Shown piece by piece: positions 19,261 to 38,079 of a stretch of DNA of 38,079 nt. Origin of the DNA: Archangiaceae bacterium (GTDB lineage: Bacteria > Myxococcota > Myxococcia > Myxococcales > Myxococcaceae). The stretch's first letter is position 1. Every line of letters starts with the position of its first letter. The notes under the pieces were generated by a model. That model did no database searches. It worked only from the letters and a program-made list of their open reading frames with translations, and was not told the DNA's origin. The stretch is taken from positions 1 to 38,079 of the forward strand of contig JAACJQ010000434.1 in NCBI GenBank assembly GCA_016879935.1. The letters run 5' to 3'. The translations under genes were made by a program, and so were the position numbers.

Positions 19261-21000
19261 GTGCGCCCACTCCTTCTCCTCGTCTGTCTGACGGCCTGCA
19301 GCCCCGTGGCGCCCACCGTCGACGGCGGGAGCGGCGGAGGCTCGGCCGGAGGTGGAAGCGCCATGCAGGTCGTCGACGCCGGAGACCCGACTGCGCCGCT
19401 CTTCGATCCCGACCACCTCGTCGAAGTCGGCATCGACGTCGCGCCCGCCGACTGGGAAGTCCTGCGCAACCAGACCCGCGACCTCTTCACGCTGCTCTCG
19501 GGCAACTGCACGAGCCAGCCATTCCCGTCACCGTTCACCACCTTCGACGCGACCGTCACCGTCGACGGCACGCGCCTTCCACGCAGCACCGTGAAGAAGA
19601 AGGGCTTCCTCGGCTCGCTCTCGGTGAACCGGCCGTCGCTCAAGCTCAAGTTCGACGCGAACGTGCCGAAGCAGAAGGTCTCGGGCCTCGACGCGATGAC
19701 GCTCAACAACGCGCAGCAAGACCCCTCCATCGTGCGGCAGTGCCTGGGCTACGCGCTCTTCCGCAAGGCCGGCCTGCGCGCGCCGCGCTGCAACTTCGCG
19801 CACGTCGTCGTGAACGGCGCCGATCTCGGCGTGTACGCGCACGTCGAAGCCATCGACAACGACTTCCTCGAGCGCCACTTCACGAAGAAGTCAGGCTCGC
19901 TCTATGAGGGCACGCTCAGCGACTTCACGACGACGTTCGTCGGCACCTTCGACCTGAAGAACTCCGGAGACCGCAGCGACCTCGAGCGCGTCGCCGCTGC
20001 GCTCAGGGCCACCGATGCCGAGCTCGAGGTGAAGCTCGCGGCCGTCATCGACCTCAACCAGTTCATCGACTTCTGGGCGATGGAGACGCTGCTGCGCCAT
20101 TGGGACGGCTACGCGGGCAACACGAACAACTTCTTCATCTACGACGACCCCGAGACGGGCCGGTTCACCTTCCTTCCCTGGGGCGCTGATGCGGTGTTCG
20201 GTGCCGAGCCTTCGTCGGCCGACAACCCCGAAGGCCCGATGCTGCGGGGCGTGCTCGCGCGGAGGCTCTACAACGTGCCCTCCCTGCGGCAGCGCTACCT
20301 CGCCCGCGTGCGCTCGTTGCTCAGCAGCGTCTTCTTCGAGAGTGAGCTGCGTCGCGAGGTGGTGCGCATGGAGAACCTCGTGCGCCCACACGTGCACCCG
20401 ATTCAGGCCGCGCAGTTCTCGAACGGGCTGGCCGACGTGCGCCGCTTCATCGACACCCGAAGAACCAACCTGACGCGTGAGCTGACGGCGGCGCCCGCGC
20501 TGGCTCCGTCGGGTGAGCGCGCGTCGCCGTGCCTGTACCCACTGGGTCGCTTCGACAGCACCTTCAGCACCACGTGGGGCAGCATCACCTCCGAAAACCC
20601 GTTCGGCGTCGGCACCGCCACGTTCGACCTGACCCTCGACGGCGGCACCCTTCCGTTCGCCCGAACGGCGTCGACCGCGGGCATCGACACGGGCGGCAAC
20701 GACGGGCCAAAGGCTGGTGTGAACCTCATCGCTGCGCGCGCCGACGGCACGGCCATGCTGGTGGGCTTGCGTATGCTCCCTCAGCTCTACCCACCCGCGA
20801 GCGACGCCGGTGTGATGCCGCTCGACCTCGTGCAGCGCGTGGGCATCGTCGTCGAGTTCGTCGGCGGCGTGGTGAAGCCGATTGGGCTGCTCGGGCCCGG
20901 CACGGTGGAGTTCACCAGCGCGAGCTCGGTCGATGGCGGCGTGGTGTCTGGCCACGTCGCGGGTCAGGTGGTGTCGTGGCCGTTCGGCGCGGGAATGTGA
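19261..21000 (+). CDS. CotH-kinase family lipoprotein
   Basis: The protein has 579 residues with a GTG start. The signal MRPLLLLVCLTAC (lipobox LTAC) is followed by a Ser/Gly linker (VDGGSGGGSAGGGSA). Family features are in order: 'TVKKKGFLGSLSVNRPSLKL' (about 110-130), 'DAMTLNNAQQDPSIVRQCLG', 'APRCNFAHVVVNGADLGVYA' then 'HVEAIDNDFLERHF', and 'NTNNFFIYDDPETGRFTFLP' followed by 'WGADAVFG'. These match the CotH spore-coat kinase fold, in which Bacillus CotH phosphorylates coat proteins. A C-terminal beta domain of about 140 residues follows. Its role in this organism is unknown; surface-protein phosphorylation or host/prey contact are possibilities. Four Cys residues in the kinase part may form disulfides, fitting an exported protein. 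Confidence 0.85.
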   Translation: MRPLLLLVCLTACSPVAPTVDGGSGGGSAGGGSAMQVVDAGDPTAPLFDPDHLVEVGIDVAPADWEVLRNQTRDLFTLLSGNCTSQPFPSPFTTFDATVTVDGTRLPRSTVKKKGFLGSLSVNRPSLKLKFDANVPKQKVSGLDAMTLNNAQQDPSIVRQCLGYALFRKAGLRAPRCNFAHVVVNGADLGVYAHVEAIDNDFLERHFTKKSGSLYEGTLSDFTTTFVGTFDLKNSGDRSDLERVAAALRATDAELEVKLAAVIDLNQFIDFWAMETLLRHWDGYAGNTNNFFIYDDPETGRFTFLPWGADAVFGAEPSSADNPEGPMLRGVLARRLYNVPSLRQRYLARVRSLLSSVFFESELRREVVRMENLVRPHVHPIQAAQFSNGLADVRRFIDTRRTNLTRELTAAPALAPSGERASPCLYPLGRFDSTFSTTWGSITSENPFGVGTATFDLTLDGGTLPFARTASTAGIDTGGNDGPKAGVNLIAARADGTAMLVGLRMLPQLYPPASDAGVMPLDLVQRVGIVVEFVGGVVKPIGLLGPGTVEFTSASSVDGGVVSGHVAGQVVSWPFGAGM

Positions 21001-30891: not shown

Positions 30892-31440
30892 TCAGCGCAG
30901 CTTCACGTCGTACGCGATGGAGTCTGGCCCCACGTCGACCTTCAGCAGCTTCGCGTCGAGGTGACCCGCGCGCAGGAACGCGACGAGCCCAGCCCCGAGG
31001 CAATTGCCCATGATGGGAGACGCCGCCGGAAAATCGGTGAGCCGCGCCTCGAGCACCACGTCCTTCACGGTGAAGGCCATCACGCCACGCGAGTAGAACT
31101 GACTGAACGCGCGTTGGGTCGAAGCGAGCGCGGTGCGCAGGTCTTCGAGCCGGCTCAACGAGCGGAACGTGCTCGAGAGGTTTCGCGAGGCGAGCAGGGT
31201 GCCGATGGTCTGGGCTCCGTCGAGCGAGCCCGAGTACTTCTCGCGCGTCACCCACTCGATGGCGCCGCAGTGCAGCTCGCCCGGCACCCAGCCGACCGGC
31301 AACACGGCCGACTCGTCGAAGAACATCGCGTGCTGCGGAAAGGCAGCCTTGAGCGCGGTGACCGTCTCGGCGCCGAACTGCTCACGCACGCACGTGAGCA
31401 CGTTGAGCCACGCGAAGCCCTTCACCTGCAGCGTCGTCAT
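30892..31440 (-). CDS. Hypothetical alpha/beta protein, sensor-like layout
   Basis: The protein has 182 residues and no signal peptide. It begins 'MTTLQVKGFAWLNVLTCVRE' followed by 'QFGAETVTALKAAF', a helix-rich opening seen in HNOB- or V4R-type small-molecule sensors. It ends with alternating strands ('MAFTVKDVVLEARLTDFPAA', 'LLKVDVGPDSIAYDVKLR') around a central 'MGNCLGAGLVAFLRAGH'. This resembles the many roughly 180-residue sensor-like proteins of myxobacteria, but I cannot name the family with confidence and no heme-binding His can be assigned. The ATG overlaps the stop of the upstream lipoprotein gene by four bases (ATGA), so the two are translationally coupled. Confidence 0.72.
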   Translation of the reverse strand: MTTLQVKGFAWLNVLTCVREQFGAETVTALKAAFPQHAMFFDESAVLPVGWVPGELHCGAIEWVTREKYSGSLDGAQTIGTLLASRNLSSTFRSLSRLEDLRTALASTQRAFSQFYSRGVMAFTVKDVVLEARLTDFPAASPIMGNCLGAGLVAFLRAGHLDAKLLKVDVGPDSIAYDVKLR

Positions 31441-32027
31441 GGCGTGCGCGATTCCTGGCAGCGGCCATCGGCGCTCACCCAGAGGTCGACGTCGTCGAGC
31501 TCGATGACGGTGCCGGCCTTGTTCGTCTTGTCCTCGATGCCGACGCTCAGCTCGTCACCGGCCTTCACCGCCACGTCGAGCTTCACGTTCGGAGGCACCT
31601 GGCTCCACGTGGTGACCGGGCCGGGCATGTCGAACTGGTTGCCGCTCGCGACGCCCGAGTTCGGCGTCAGCCCATAGAAGCGCACGGTCGTCGCCGTCGA
31701 GGTGCTCTTGATCCACACGCGCAGGCAGTAGCTCGCGGCGGCGGGCGCGATGACCTTCCACTCCGAGCCGAAGCGGTTGCCGTAGATGCCGTTGGCCGTC
31801 GTGAACTTCAGGGCCTTGCCCGTGCGGCCGGTCGAGACCTCGACCTTGCTGTTGGGGTCGAGCGCCTTGAACTCCAGCGTGGGGTCTCCGCACTCGAAGA
31901 GGCCGTTCCGCGCGAGGTTCGGCGGGTTGAGCGTGGGCACGCTGCAGGTCATGCCCGCGTCCATCGTCATCGAGTTCGGGCCACACGCTGCGGCGAGCAC
32001 CACGAGGCACAGACAGACCAGTCGCAT
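31437..32027 (-). CDS. Lipoprotein with carbohydrate-binding-like (CBM4/9 jelly-roll) domain
   Basis: The protein has 196 residues from ATG 32027: MRLVCLCLVVLAAAC gives lipobox AAAC, then GPNSMTMDAG. The rest reads as one jelly-roll: 'NLARNGLFECGDPTLEFKAL', 'GRTGKALKFTTANGIYG', 'SYCLRVWIKSTSTATTVRFY', 'VAVKAGDELSVGIEDKTNKA', 'GTVIELDDVDLWV'. The opening 'N-x-x-x-N-G-x-F-E-x-G' and closing 'I-E-L-D-D-V-x-L' are the usual marks of CBM4/9-like domains. Sugar specificity is unknown. Four Cys in the mature part may form disulfides. Its stop overlaps the start of the sensor-like gene (ATGA). Confidence 0.8.
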   Translation of the reverse strand: MRLVCLCLVVLAAACGPNSMTMDAGMTCSVPTLNPPNLARNGLFECGDPTLEFKALDPNSKVEVSTGRTGKALKFTTANGIYGNRFGSEWKVIAPAAASYCLRVWIKSTSTATTVRFYGLTPNSGVASGNQFDMPGPVTTWSQVPPNVKLDVAVKAGDELSVGIEDKTNKAGTVIELDDVDLWVSADGRCQESRTP

Positions 32028-32069
32028 GCACCGCCTTGTGCCCTGTCGACGGCGCGCTGACAACGCCCG

Positions 32070-32487
32070 TCAGGCGCTCTTCTTCAGGCGCTGCTCACCG
32101 GCGATCCACCCGCGCGCTTCACCGACGGTCGCGACGTACTTGTTCACGAGCTTGCCGGCGACCTTCGACATGATCGCCCCGACGCTCATCTTCGTGATGG
32201 CGCGCGCCGACGATCACCGCCATGTGCGTGAGCGCACTCTGTGACAGCAGCCGCGGAAACCAATCGCCGTTCACCCACTGCGTGTCGGCTTCGTCGACGA
32301 CGCCCAGGTACTGCACGTCGCCGATCCACCCCGTCGCCTTGAACTTCTTCGCCGCGGTGAGCCCCTGCTCGAGGGCTTCCTTGAACTCGGCGCCTTTCGC
32401 GAAGCGCTTCCAGCTGAGGTGAATGGTGTTGATCTCGGCGTCGAACTGAACGCTGACGCAGTCGGATTCGAAGGCACTGACGGGCAT
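32070..32487 (-). pseudogene. STAS/SpoIIAA-like protein gene with a frameshift
   Basis: ATG 32487 lies 7 bases behind GGAG. The first frame reads 'FDAEINTIHLSWKRFAKGAE', 'TGWIGDVQYLGVVDEADTQW', 'LLSQSALTHMAVIVGAR', a SpoIIAA/STAS-like alpha/beta domain. At the GGCGCGCGCC tract (32199-32208) sense moves to another frame: 'ITKMSVGAIMSKVAGKLVN', 'YVATVGEARGWIAGEQRLKK', stop at 32070. The second half is the expected final strand and helix of the same domain ('F/V-x-T-x-x-E-A-x-x-W'). Adding one GC pair to the tract (or removing one base) yields a 138-residue intact protein. Without repair the first frame runs on into a meaningless charged tail. It could be a real mutation or an assembly error. 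Confidence 0.72.
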
Positions 32488-32589
32488 GGTGAACTCCGGG
32501 CGGGGGTGAACGGCGAGTCGCGCTTCGTCACGTTCGGCCGACTCCTCGAGGGGCTTGCGTGCGGCTCCACGGGCCTTCAACGTCTGCCC

Positions 32590-33546
32590 ATGGCTCGTCG
32601 CACCCGGCTGCTTCCGGTGACCCTGCTCGTTCTGGCTGCCGTCGCGCGCGCGCAGGAGCCGACGCCACCGCCGCTCCCCACGATGGAGCCCCTGCAGGAC
32701 CAACCCTCCTCCGCGCCCGTCGAGCCCGTGCAGCAGCAGCCCTCGTACGCACCTGTCTCGCAACCGGTGCAGCAGCCTCCACCGACCTACGCGCAGCAGT
32801 GTTTCGGTTACCCGTCGGGCATGTACCTGCTGCCGTTGCCGCGCGTGTCGACCGGCCTGGCGGTGAGCGGCTCGACCTCCCGCTCCGGCAACGGCGGCAA
32901 CGGGTCGAGCTCGAGCGGGAGCAGTGGAAGCGCAAGTGGCGGCGGCGATGGAAAGGCGCTCCTCGTCATCGCGGTCCTGGTGGCCATCGCGCTGCCGGTC
33001 GTCATCTACGCGTTCGACGACGAGGCCGCGCCCATCGTGCAGCAGCGCTTCGGGTGCCCGAGCTTCCACCTCGACCTGCAGGGCGGTGCCGACACGGGCG
33101 TGGCCTTCCCGGGAGCGAGGCCCTTCGGCCAGGGCCGCTTCACGATGGCGTTCGGCTACTTCGGCACCGACGTTCAGGGAGACTTCAGCCCTGCGGCGGT
33201 GAGCACCTTCGCCGCACACGCGCTGCTGCGCATCTTCCCCAGGCAGCACGTCGAAGGCGCGCTCTCGGCCGGCTATCGCCGCATGGTGGTCGGCGGGCAG
33301 GTGCGTGACGGCTTCGACGTGGGGCTGCCGCATCGCTACGCCTTCTGGCGCGACGACTTGAGAATGCTCGGCCTCGAGCTTCGGCCCTCGCTCCAGTTCG
33401 GGCCGGCAGGCATCGACGCGGCGCTCGAAGCCGCGTTCATCGCGCCCGTCTTCGAGCTGCTCCATCTGCGGCTCGGTGGGCGCGTGTTCAGCTACGGCAG
33501 CGCCATCGTCTTCGGTGGCACCGCCGGGTTGACGCTGGGCATCTGA
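32590..33546 (+). CDS. Exported envelope protein with Pro/Gln-rich and Gly/Ser-rich linkers
   Basis: The protein has 318 residues. Signal peptide 'MARRTRLLPVTLLVLAAVAR' with a likely cut after ARA precedes a Pro/Gln-rich region ('PVEPVQQQPSYAPVSQPVQQ'). Next is a Gly/Ser linker (about 105-125) and a membrane helix ('ALLVIAVLVAIALPVVIYAF'). The last roughly 160 residues alternate hydrophobic and polar residues with Gly turns ('GRFTMAFGYFGTDVQGDF', 'GALSAGYRRMVVGGQVRDGF', 'LRLGGRVFSYGSAIVFGGTA'), as in an outer-membrane beta barrel or a beta domain. No family is recognised. It has 102 bases of upstream space to the divergent STAS-like gene. ATG 32590 is chosen for the signal peptide. Confidence 0.75.
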   Translation: MARRTRLLPVTLLVLAAVARAQEPTPPPLPTMEPLQDQPSSAPVEPVQQQPSYAPVSQPVQQPPPTYAQQCFGYPSGMYLLPLPRVSTGLAVSGSTSRSGNGGNGSSSSGSSGSASGGGDGKALLVIAVLVAIALPVVIYAFDDEAAPIVQQRFGCPSFHLDLQGGADTGVAFPGARPFGQGRFTMAFGYFGTDVQGDFSPAAVSTFAAHALLRIFPRQHVEGALSAGYRRMVVGGQVRDGFDVGLPHRYAFWRDDLRMLGLELRPSLQFGPAGIDAALEAAFIAPVFELLHLRLGGRVFSYGSAIVFGGTAGLTLGI

Positions 33547-33908: not shown

Positions 33909-33982
33909 CATGTGCTGTCATGTGACCGCTGGTTACATGGCATGTTTCCGCTGGTCACTTTCATGTCGCCGGCGGTAACATC
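33909..33982. promoter_or_regulatory. Operator-like array: palindrome plus phased CATGT repeats
   Basis: CATGT occurs at 33909, 33919, 33941 and 33962, that is 10, 22 and 21 bases apart, close to one and two helical turns. The copy at 33919 opens an inverted repeat: left arm CATGTGACC, spacer GCT, right arm GGTTACATG (33919-33939), with 8 of 9 pairs. Two degenerate copies follow (CATGTTTCCGCTGGTCACTT and CATGTCGCCGGCGGTAACAT). The array sits between the divergent genes starting at 33798 and 34066. This is the form of a cooperative regulator site. The regulator is unknown. Confidence 0.5.
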
Positions 33983-34065: not shown

Positions 34066-37000
34066 ATGGTCACGCGAACGTCGCTGGTCACCGTGTTGGT
34101 GGTGTCGTTGCTGTCATTGGAGGTCGAGGCGCAGGCGGCGTGCAACGGCTCCAACGACGGAGCGCTCTGCGACGACAACTCGGCCTGCACGACGGGCGAC
34201 GTCTGCGCGAACGGCGTGTGCGTCGGGCGGGCCGTCATCTGCCCCGAAGACTCGAACCCGTGCACGACGGCGGTGTGCAACATCGCCCGAGGCTGTGGTT
34301 TCGCGAACAACACGGCGGCGTGCGACGACGGCAACGGCTGCACGCTCAACGACGTCTGCTCGGCCGGAGCGTGTCAGCCGGGCGCACCGAAGAACTGCAA
34401 CGACAACAACGTGTGCACGACGGACTCCTGTGTTCCCGCGACAGGTGCGTGTGTCGTCACGAACAACACGGCCTCATGCAACGACGCGGACCCGTGTACG
34501 ACCGGCGACACCTGCAGCGGCGGCGTCTGTCTCGGCACAGGCACGTTGACGTGCAACGACAACAACGCGTGCACCCGAGACGCCTGTGCGACGGGCATTG
34601 GCTGCACGTTCTCTCCAGTCCCGCCTGGAACGACCTGCAACGACAACTCTGCGTGCACCAGTGGCGATACCTGTTCGAACGGTACCTGCATCGGCTCGGC
34701 CATCACGTGCCCTGACGACAACAATCCGTGCACGTCTCCGTTCTGCTCGGCCACGACGGGCTGCGGGTTCGTGAACAACACGGCCGCATGCGACGACGGA
34801 AATCCCTGCACGCTCAACGACGTCTGCGGTGGCGGCACCTGCCGACCGGGAACGCCGAAGACGTGCAGCGACAATAACGTCTGCACGAACGACAGCTGCG
34901 AGCCGACGACGGGGCAGTGCACGTTCGTGAACAACACCGCGAGCTGCAGCGATGGAAATCCGTGTACGACCGGCGACACGTGCTCGGGAGGAAGCTGCTC
35001 GGGAACAGGGACACTGTCGTGCAGCGACAACAATGCGTGCACTACCGACAGCTGCTCTCCGGTGACGGGCTGCACCTATTCGCCCGCGCCATCGGGCACG
35101 ACGTGCAACGACAACTCGCCCTGCACGAGTGGAGATGTCTGCACGAACGGCGTCTGTGCCGGCTCGGCCATCACGTGCCCTGACGACAACAACCCGTGCA
35201 CGTCTCCGTTCTGCTCGGCCACGACGGGCTGCGGCTTCGTGAACAACACGGCCGCGTGCGACGACGGGAATCCCTGCACGCTCAACGACGTGTGCGGAGG
35301 AGGTTCGTGTCAGCCGGGAACGCCGAAGACGTGCAACGACAACAACGTGTGCACGACGGACGTCTGCTCGCCGGCGACGGGCCAGTGTGGCTTCGTGAAC
35401 AACACCGCGTCGTGCAACGACGGCAACGTCTGCACCACCGGCGACACCTGCAGCGGCGGCACGTGCGCAGGCACAGGAACGCTCTCTTGCAGCGACAACA
35501 ATGCGTGCACCACCGACAGTTGCTCTCCGGTGACGGGCTGCACCTATTCACCCGCGCCATCGGGCACCGCGTGCAACGACAACTCGCCATGCACGAGTGG
35601 AGATGTCTGCACGAACGGCATCTGTGCCGGCTCGGCCATCACGTGTCCTGACGACAACAATCCGTGCACGTCGCCGTTCTGCTCGGCCACGACGGGGTGC
35701 GGGTTCGTGAACAACACCGCGGCGTGCGACGACGGAAATCCCTGCACGTTGAACGACGTCTGCGGCGGGGGAACCTGTCACGCCGGAACGCCGAAGACGT
35801 GCAGCGACAACAACGTGTACACGAACGACAGCTGCGAGCCGGCGACGGGGCAGTGCACCTTCGTGAACAACACCGCGAGCTGCAGCGACGGAAACGTCTG
35901 CACCACGGGTGACAGGTGCAGCGGCGGCACGTGCGCAGGCACAGGAACGCTCTCGTGCAACGACAACAACGCGTGCACCACCGACAGCTGCTCTCCGGTG
36001 ACGGGTTGCACCTATTCACCCGCGCCATCGGGCACCACGTGCAACGACAACTCGCCCTGCACGAGCGGAGACGTCTGTACGAACGGCGTCTGCGCGGGCT
36101 CTGCCATCACCTGCCCTGACGACAACAACCCGTGCACGTCACCGTTCTGCTCGGCCACGACGGGCTGCGGGTTCGTCAACAACACGGCGGCGTGCGACGA
36201 CGGGAATCCATGCACGCTCAACGACGTGTGCGGTGGCGGAACGTGCCAGGCCGGAACGCCGAAGACGTGTAACGACAACAATGTCTGCACGACAGACACT
36301 TGCTCGCCGCTCACCGGTCAGTGCGGCTTCGCCAACAACACCGCCAGCTGCAGCGACGGAAATCCGTGTACGACCGGCGACACGTGCTCGGGAGGCACTT
36401 GCTCGGGAACCGGGACGCTTTCGTGCAGCGACAACAACGCGTGCACCACCGACAGTTGCTCTCCGGTGACGGGTTGCACCTATGCACCCGCGCCGTCCGG
36501 CACCACGTGCAACGACAACTCGCCCTGTACGAGTGGAGATGTCTGCGCCAACGGCGTCTGCGCCGGCTCGGCCATCACGTGCCCTGACGACAACAACCCG
36601 TGCACGTCGCCGTTCTGCTCCACGACGACGGGCTGCGGCTTCGTGAACAACACCGCCGCGTGCGACGATGGAAATCCCTGCACGCTGAACGACGTCTGTG
36701 GCGGCGGCACCTGTCGACCTGGAACGCCGAAGGCGTGTAACGACAACAACGTCTGCACGAACGATAGCTGTTCGCCGATCACCGGCGCCTGCGTCGCCAC
36801 GAACAACACAGCGACCTGCGACGACGGCAACGCATGCACGACGGGAGATACCTGCGCGGGTGGAACGTGCTCAGGCAGCGGGAGCCTCGGCTGCAACGAC
36901 AACAACGTGTGCACCGTCGATACCTGCAGCCCCATCATCGGCTGCGTCTTCACCGCTGCGGCCATGGGCACCGTGTGCAACGACAACTCAGCCTGCACGA

Positions 37001-37590
37001 CGAGCGATCAGTGCATCGATGGGCACTGCGTCGGTACGGCGCTGGAGTGCAACGACTTCGTGGCGTGCACGATGGACCTCTGCAATCCCGCCACGGGCGC
37101 GTGTGAGTTCGTTCCCACCTGCGATGGCGGTGTGCCTGATGCCGGAGTTGATGGCGGAGCAGGTGGTGGCGCCGCTGGTGGTGGAACAGCGGGAGGCGCA
37201 GCGAGCGCGGGTGGAACTGCTTCAGCGGGAGGTTCAGCGAGCGCTGGCGGAGGCATCGCGACAGCAGGAGGCACTGCGAGCGCAGGCGGGAGTGCTTCGG
37301 CAGGAGGCGTCGCGACTGCAGGAGGAACTGCGAGCGCAGGCGGAAGTGCTTCAGCAGGAGGCGTCGCGACAGCTGGAGGAACTGCGAGCGCGGGCGGAAG
37401 TGCTTCGGCGGGAGGCGTTGCGACTGCGGGAGGAACTGCGAGCGCTGGTGGTAGCGCGACAGCGGGCGGCTCCGGCGGTGGCGGAACGGGTGACATGGGT
37501 GGCTGCTCCTGCTCGAGCGGCGCTGGGACGTTGTGGCTGCTCTCGCTCCTCGTTCTTCGTCGTCGCCGCGTGGCCGATTTGATGCGGTGA
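34066..37590 (+). CDS. Giant Cys-rich tandem-repeat surface protein with MYXO-CTERM tail
   Basis: The protein has 1174 residues. Signal peptide 'MVTRTSLVTVLVVSLLSLEV' (cut near AQAA) is followed by about 1000 residues of Cys-rich repeats. The smallest unit is of the kind 'CNDNNACTTDSCSPVTGCTY' and 'CDDGNPCTLNDVCGGGTC', six Cys per roughly 40 residues, as in Dictyostelium-type and related bacterial Cys-rich repeats. Four such units build a 156-residue super-repeat present six times. A Gly/Ala/Ser/Thr spacer with an 18-residue repeat (about 1030-1140) leads to the MYXO-CTERM tail: 'GGCSCSSGAGTLWLLSLLVL' and RRRRVADLMR. It should be a long disulfide-stiffened surface stalk or adhesin. D-x-N/D-x-N/D stretches in each unit could bind calcium. 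GGGGGAG just upstream of ATG 34066 is the ribosome site. Its ligand is unknown. Confidence 0.9.
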   Translation: MVTRTSLVTVLVVSLLSLEVEAQAACNGSNDGALCDDNSACTTGDVCANGVCVGRAVICPEDSNPCTTAVCNIARGCGFANNTAACDDGNGCTLNDVCSAGACQPGAPKNCNDNNVCTTDSCVPATGACVVTNNTASCNDADPCTTGDTCSGGVCLGTGTLTCNDNNACTRDACATGIGCTFSPVPPGTTCNDNSACTSGDTCSNGTCIGSAITCPDDNNPCTSPFCSATTGCGFVNNTAACDDGNPCTLNDVCGGGTCRPGTPKTCSDNNVCTNDSCEPTTGQCTFVNNTASCSDGNPCTTGDTCSGGSCSGTGTLSCSDNNACTTDSCSPVTGCTYSPAPSGTTCNDNSPCTSGDVCTNGVCAGSAITCPDDNNPCTSPFCSATTGCGFVNNTAACDDGNPCTLNDVCGGGSCQPGTPKTCNDNNVCTTDVCSPATGQCGFVNNTASCNDGNVCTTGDTCSGGTCAGTGTLSCSDNNACTTDSCSPVTGCTYSPAPSGTACNDNSPCTSGDVCTNGICAGSAITCPDDNNPCTSPFCSATTGCGFVNNTAACDDGNPCTLNDVCGGGTCHAGTPKTCSDNNVYTNDSCEPATGQCTFVNNTASCSDGNVCTTGDRCSGGTCAGTGTLSCNDNNACTTDSCSPVTGCTYSPAPSGTTCNDNSPCTSGDVCTNGVCAGSAITCPDDNNPCTSPFCSATTGCGFVNNTAACDDGNPCTLNDVCGGGTCQAGTPKTCNDNNVCTTDTCSPLTGQCGFANNTASCSDGNPCTTGDTCSGGTCSGTGTLSCSDNNACTTDSCSPVTGCTYAPAPSGTTCNDNSPCTSGDVCANGVCAGSAITCPDDNNPCTSPFCSTTTGCGFVNNTAACDDGNPCTLNDVCGGGTCRPGTPKACNDNNVCTNDSCSPITGACVATNNTATCDDGNACTTGDTCAGGTCSGSGSLGCNDNNVCTVDTCSPIIGCVFTAAAMGTVCNDNSACTTSDQCIDGHCVGTALECNDFVACTMDLCNPATGACEFVPTCDGGVPDAGVDGGAGGGAAGGGTAGGAASAGGTASAGGSASAGGGIATAGGTASAGGSASAGGVATAGGTASAGGSASAGGVATAGGTASAGGSASAGGVATAGGTASAGGSATAGGSGGGGTGDMGGCSCSSGAGTLWLLSLLVLRRRRVADLMR
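34168..37100 (+). repeat. 468-bp in-frame tandem super-repeat, six full copies plus a partial
   Basis: The same anchor (TG[CT] plus a GACAACTC core) recurs at 34168, 34636, 35104, 35572, 36040, 36508 and 36976, each exactly 468 bases apart without a single indel. Inner copies (34636-36975) are near identical for long stretches, while the first and last are more diverged. This pattern fits unequal crossing-over or gene conversion within the gene. Confidence 0.93.
37259..37474 (+). repeat. 54-bp in-frame repeat encoding the Gly/Ala-rich spacer
   Basis: Copies start at 37259, 37313, 37367 and 37421, 54 bases apart, and encode ATAGGTASAGGSASAGGV with small changes. They lie between the Cys-rich repeats and the MYXO-CTERM tail of the same gene and probably form the flexible wall- or membrane-spanning linker. 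Confidence 0.88.
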
Positions 37591-37653: not shown

Positions 37654-38079
37654 ATGATGAAGACCTCGTTCGTGTTGTCGCTGGTGCTGTTCTCGCTCTC
37701 GTGCGGAGCGCCCCTGATGGAGTGCGCGAGCACGTGCTCGGGCTGTTGCGATGGAGAGGTGTGCGTTCAAGGCAACGAAGACCGGGCGTGCGGCTCGAGA
37801 GGCTCCGCGTGTGTTCGCCCTCGTCCTGTTTCGGGGGCCAGTGCGTGATGTTGGGAACTCCGGGCGGCCAGAGTGGTGGTGACGTCGGTGGCGGAGTTGC
37901 GAGCGGTGGAGGAACTGCTGGCGGATCCGTCGGTGGCGTCGGTGGCGTCGGTGGCGGAACGAGCGGCGTCGGGGGCGGCACGGTCGGCGGAGGCGTGCGC
38001 GGCGGCGGCGGCGGACTGAGCAGCCCCGGCGGAGGCGCGAGCGGCGTCGGTGGAGGAACGAGCGGCGTGGGCGGCGGAA
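37654..38079 (+). pseudogene. Cys/Gly-rich lipoprotein, frameshifted and cut by the window edge
   Basis: From ATG 37654, MMKTSFVLSLVLFSLSC is a lipoprotein signal. 'MECASTCSGCCDGEVCVQGN' and 'EDRACGSRGSACV' follow, a common myxobacterial start in which further Cys pairs and a long Gly/Ser linker are expected. Instead the frame turns to 'RPRPVSGASA' and stops at 37848. Another frame continues the expected pattern: 'VCSPSSCFGGQCVMLGTPGG' then 'GGDVGGGVASGGGTAGGSVG' and Gly repeats to the window end. Adding one GT pair in the GCGTGTGT tract (37807-37814) joins both parts as '...SACVCSPSSCFGGQCV...'. It lies 63 bases after the giant repeat protein on the same strand and may be co-expressed. Whether the break is real cannot be decided here. 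Confidence 0.65.

Follow-up and report, generated by a model that had tools for sequence, protein, structure and literature searches.

The window analysed here, the whole of contig C5 (38079 bp) in a 9.5-Mb draft genome of 445 contigs, encodes a headless, cysteine-rich protein that consists largely of CTDC repeats, ends in a MYXO-CTERM sorting tail, and is probably anchored on the cell surface. The reading favoured here, with somewhat better than even confidence, is a lipid-anchored, disulfide-rich rod that reaches the cell surface through the MYXO-CTERM/MrtX pathway and acts as a structural spacer or matrix fibre. The idea of a rigid Cys-rich stalk is already known from TraA; what is distinctive in this protein is the headless form.

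Gene structure and repeat organization

The gene is a single ORF with an ATG start at positions 34066-37590 of the plus strand (1174 aa), and the extent given in the sequence-only reading was borne out by the ORF check. The open frame spans 1185 aa versus 1174 aa for the CDS. Because it exceeds the CDS by only 11 codons upstream, an in-frame head in that direction is impossible, and a hidden head domain was ruled out. A signal peptide is predicted by eye at residues 1-24 (MVTRTSLVTVLVVSLLSLEVEAQA; 34066-34137, plus strand), with a basic start, a hydrophobic core and an A-x-A site. A Pfam scan of the whole 1174-aa protein matched PF00526 (Dicty_CTDC) over 19 stretches (E=4.6e-66, 218.6 bits, cut-off 27) and no other domain.

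Parsing by cysteine pattern yielded 38 four-Cys units in an array starting at residue 35. Type A units of 18 aa (C-x5-C-x5-C-x4-C) alternate with type B units of 18-19 aa, and six units, or three A/B pairs, make up one 156-aa super-repeat; the array comprises six super-repeats and two closing units. This parsing replaces an earlier count of four Cys-rich units per super-repeat. Residue identity was 80% at a lag of 156, versus 11% at 155 and 9% at 157, and DNA identity was 79% at a lag of 468 versus about 20% at 467 and 469. The seven anchors reported to lie 468 bases apart without an indel were recovered as anchor units spaced exactly 156 residues throughout (residues 35, 191, 347, 503, 659, 815 and 971). 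The description of six exact super-repeats stands for the period and for the number of copies but not for their sequences, for which protein identity ranges from 63 to 95% and DNA identity from 67 to 90%.

The super-repeats were delimited on the plus strand by Cys parsing and copy comparison. Super-repeat 1 (34168-34635), with six four-Cys units, has diverged furthest (its protein identity to the remaining copies is 67-70%) and is followed by super-repeats 2 (34636-35103), 3 (35104-35571), 4 (35572-36039), 5 (36040-36507) and 6 (36508-36975). In one unit of super-repeat 4, Tyr584 (codon 35815-35817) stands in place of a Cys and leaves a free thiol in that unit. The two closing units, 37 and 38, were placed by Cys parsing at 36976-37104 (plus strand), and a Gly/Ala/Ser/Thr-rich low-complexity linker extends over 37123-37500 of the same strand, its DNA carrying a 54-bp tandem repeat of its own (37249-37445). 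Nine other CTDC matches were found in the source genome, each in a protein with one CTDC unit by pattern. The window array may therefore be the only CTDC array among the matches found, with longer arrays possible at C380 and C291, where the matches lie near contig ends.

Divergence among the super-repeats

The array had been attributed to recent tandem duplication and homogenisation, a view that the divergence among copies contradicts. Pairwise dS between super-repeats ranged from 0.29 to 1.37, the closest pair being copies 3 and 4 (dS 0.29), and the longest identical run common to any two super-repeats was 47 nt. Recent homogenisation was ruled out on dS. Super-repeats 1 and 6 are far more diverged than super-repeats 2-5. 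Pairwise dN was 0.05-0.27, the greater part of the changes being synonymous, and since dN/dS between copies is about 0.1-0.3, the sequence of the repeat unit appears constrained. Taken as sequence evidence, these values argue for old duplications under purifying selection, with patchy conversion at most. An assembly artefact was likewise rejected; the copies differ by 10-33% in DNA, and collapse in a short-read assembly is unlikely because no two copies share a run longer than 47 nt.

Within the array, copies 2-6 are 78-94% identical, while outside relatives reach at most 53% in a set of 96 family genomes, own genome included. Because identity within the array far exceeds identity to these relatives, the amplification is, by sequence comparison, lineage-specific without being recent. 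No orthologue of the window protein was detected in the 95 other family genomes (E<=1e-24; best outside identity 53%). A phage origin was also considered and rejected, as a tblastn search with one super-repeat found nothing in phages.

Sorting tail and comparison with TraA

The MYXO-CTERM tail (GCSCSSGAGTLWLLSLLVLRRRR; 37501-37569, plus strand) was recognized by TIGR03382 when the C-terminal fragment was scanned alone, a weak match at 18.8 bits against a cut-off of 15.85. The whole-protein scan did not detect the tail and gave no NCBIfam match up to E=10, including none to TIGR04201, the TraA-type Cys-rich repeat; TIGR03901 scored 8.0 bits on the tail, under its cut-off of 20. The same genome carries several other MYXO-CTERM tails and encodes the myxosortase MrtX (NF040593, 342.4 bits, cut-off 180), for which control genomes all scored below the cut-off. 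These results support the proposed stalk, a secreted protein of tandem Cys-rich repeats followed by a flexible Gly/Ala spacer and a MYXO-CTERM tail.

Experimental precedent for the MYXO-CTERM anchor and the MrtX pathway is provided by TraA (PMC11980579). In TraA of Myxococcus xanthus (MXAN_6895), the Cys-rich repeats were proposed in 2012 to form a rigid stalk, and their resemblance to PF00526 was already remarked (PMC3325183). Both proteins have a long Cys-rich repeat region and a MYXO-CTERM tail, which in TraA is processed by MrtX; TraA also has a signal peptide, as is predicted for the window protein. However, TraA combines a PA14 head with TIGR04201 repeats, whereas the window protein has PF00526 repeats, and neither PA14 nor any other head was found by Pfam in the whole protein, in which the array begins at residue 35. 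Furthermore, its 38 regular units and 156-aa super-period distinguish it from TraA.

The window protein could be an adhesin, as is the MYXO-CTERM protein TraA with its Cys-rich repeats (PMC3325183); the repeats of the window protein would then bind glycans or neighbouring cells, with repeat number setting reach or avidity. The best Foldseek match, the Entamoeba Gal/GalNAc lectin heavy chain, points the same way, though it is non-significant (E=0.038). Nevertheless, Pfam shows no recognition domain, the proposed recognition part of TraA is its PA14 head and not its repeats, and the 95 other family genomes hold no orthologue in which copy-number variation might be revealed; an adhesin is considered rather unlikely. 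Lacking a head, the protein is less likely to be a receptor or adhesin than a spacer or part of a matrix; most likely it serves as a headless spacer or as a fibre of the matrix, in the manner of EcmA and EcmB in Dictyostelium.

Related array proteins

Array proteins in other genomes of the family bear a variety of heads. A lamin-tail head was found in G001:C294 and G007:C398, with G010:C564 just under the cut-off, and a PSII_BNR propeller head in G003:C337, with a weak match in G001:C45 and the same propeller type recognized by eye in G075:C163. The order in these proteins is head, CTDC array, Gly/Ala/Asp/Thr-rich linker and tail. Loss of the tail from all homologues, which the sequence-only reading had named as counter-evidence, does not occur, as family relatives with closed frames retain it: a GC[GS]C...RRR tail was present in all four frames that close (G001:C294, G003:C337, G010:C564 and G075:C163). 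The frames of G007:C398 and G001:C45 continue past the ends of their contigs. The window protein shares with this family the succession of PF00526 array, low-complexity linker and GC[GS]C...RRR tail; the relatives differ in having an N-terminal head, fewer and less regular units, and at most 53% identity to the window super-repeat. The window protein is the stalk of this family minus the head, unusual mainly for being all stalk, and Myxococcota re-employ one CTDC stalk beneath different heads.

Arrays of up to 127 CTDC units occur in distant Myxococcales MAGs. These giant proteins of uncultured Myxococcales (L013-L091) resemble the window protein in their large arrays and the same A/B alternation, but almost all of them either terminate in other domains or just stop. 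By a crude tail rule, a MYXO-like tail was recognised in one of 86 closed frames; because the other 85 end otherwise, the CTDC repeat is not tied to the MYXO-CTERM anchor. Among the 52 distant proteins with a recognisable signal peptide, the array begins within 75 residues of it in four, again by a crude rule. A further 67-unit CTDC array (L076; JACQFE010000046.1, labelled Planctomycetota) has an apparent IPTL-CTERM-type tail (IPTVSQWGLIILSILLL...), which from its sequence looks like another sorting signal attached to this type of stalk.

Predicted structure and function

Super-repeat 3 was folded with AlphaFold2 from 77 aligned super-repeats, giving a mean pLDDT of 95.4 and a pTM of 0.70; in the model every unit has two strands, and helices are absent. 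A single repeat folded without an alignment reached a pLDDT of 45. A sequence search for solved structures returned no PDB entry related to the super-repeat, and a fold search of the PDB gave no significant match (Foldseek best E=0.038; VIA best Z 2.1), a result that is not evidence on fold novelty. The array probably forms an elongated rod. The 156-aa module is regular, confidently predicted and without a sequence-related PDB structure, and solving it could settle the shape of CTDC/TraA-like stalks.

A clue to disulfide pairing came from another array protein, G013:C8 (L121; about 320082-321581, minus strand), in which 22 successive CTDC units all lack Cys1 and Cys4. Its array contains 44 Cys, only Cys2 and Cys3 remaining in each unit. 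Only this clean array was used, since register shifts in the unit patterns distorted the counts of Cys loss over all arrays. Such losses are as expected for Cys1-Cys4 and Cys2-Cys3 pairing, within or between units, and suggest this arrangement from one protein and thus from one or few events.

Across the 77 aligned rows, most units show little or no variation in the motif C-x-D-x-N-x-C-T and in the D preceding the third Cys. These acidic D/N loops could make the array a calcium- or metal-binding surface structure that buffers ions or forms a rod stiffened by calcium. This reading is very improbable, the least probable of those considered, as no known calcium-repeat family was matched in Pfam and the conserved D and N may merely cap turns.

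Under the favoured reading of an anchored rod, the protein would be exported by Sec, and on oxidation its 38 small four-Cys beta-hairpin units would form an elongated stalk. MrtX would then process the tail at the conserved Cys, lipid anchoring would follow, and a type II secretion route would display the protein beyond the outer membrane. In the family relatives, the stalk would hold the head off the cell through the Gly/Ala/Asp-rich linker. For the window protein itself, we infer surface display, lipid anchoring and a mechanical or matrix role.

EcmA and EcmB of Dictyostelium are CTDC matrix proteins (PMC4931340, PMC9117722) that share PF00526 repeats with the window protein and are extracellular. 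They differ in being eukaryotic and in having no MYXO-CTERM anchor. A more specific and tentative version of the favoured reading, held with well under even confidence, is that the headless CTDC rod is a membrane-anchored bacterial counterpart of these matrix proteins, forming an extracellular mesh with Cys1-Cys4 and Cys2-Cys3 disulfide sets. In this myxobacterium, a repeat family of slime-mould matrix proteins makes up a headless, probably anchored stalk.

Genomic context

Upstream of the gene, the neighbour at 32419-33546 has no Pfam or NCBIfam match and is kept together with the gene at 31437-32063 in congeners G003, G004 and G006. In G006, these two upstream neighbours are followed by no CTDC gene within about 10 kb; the G003 and G004 contigs stop 1.1 and 2.6 kb past the neighbour, with no CTDC gene in that span.

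The absence of the gene from its syntenic place in the long-flanked G006 could indicate that the window protein was once a head-bearing surface protein whose head was lost, the stalk persisting as neutral or decaying sequence. Heads are present in its close array relatives, and the replacement of a Cys by Tyr584 also fits decay. However, all 1174 codons are open, the predicted signal peptide and the tail are intact, and dN/dS of about 0.1-0.3 between copies indicates that the array was constrained for most of its history at least; head loss of this kind is judged improbable, and markedly more so than an adhesin.

Upstream of the gene, the intergenic DNA contains three direct copies of the near-palindrome CATGTnnCCGSYGGTnAC, spaced by 22 and 21 bp (33915-33981). 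A stricter form (GTNNCCRSYGGNNACATG) matched the genome nine times and its reversed control not once; four of the nine matches fall in this cluster, which from its sequence is possibly the putative operator of some regulator. The remaining sites adjoin dihydroorotase-, MnmE-, GNAT- and bactofilin/HDOD-like genes (named by eye). These genes being functionally unrelated, a surface-protein regulon was rejected. Downstream, positions 37654-38079 hold the start of a second short ORF, Cys-rich, Gly-rich and lipoprotein-like (MMKTSFVLSLVLFSLSCGAPLMECASTCSGCC...), with an apparent frame change ahead of the Gly-rich part and cut by the contig end. Elsewhere in the window, a CotH kinase-like protein is encoded at 19261-20997 (PF08757, 1.4e-46).
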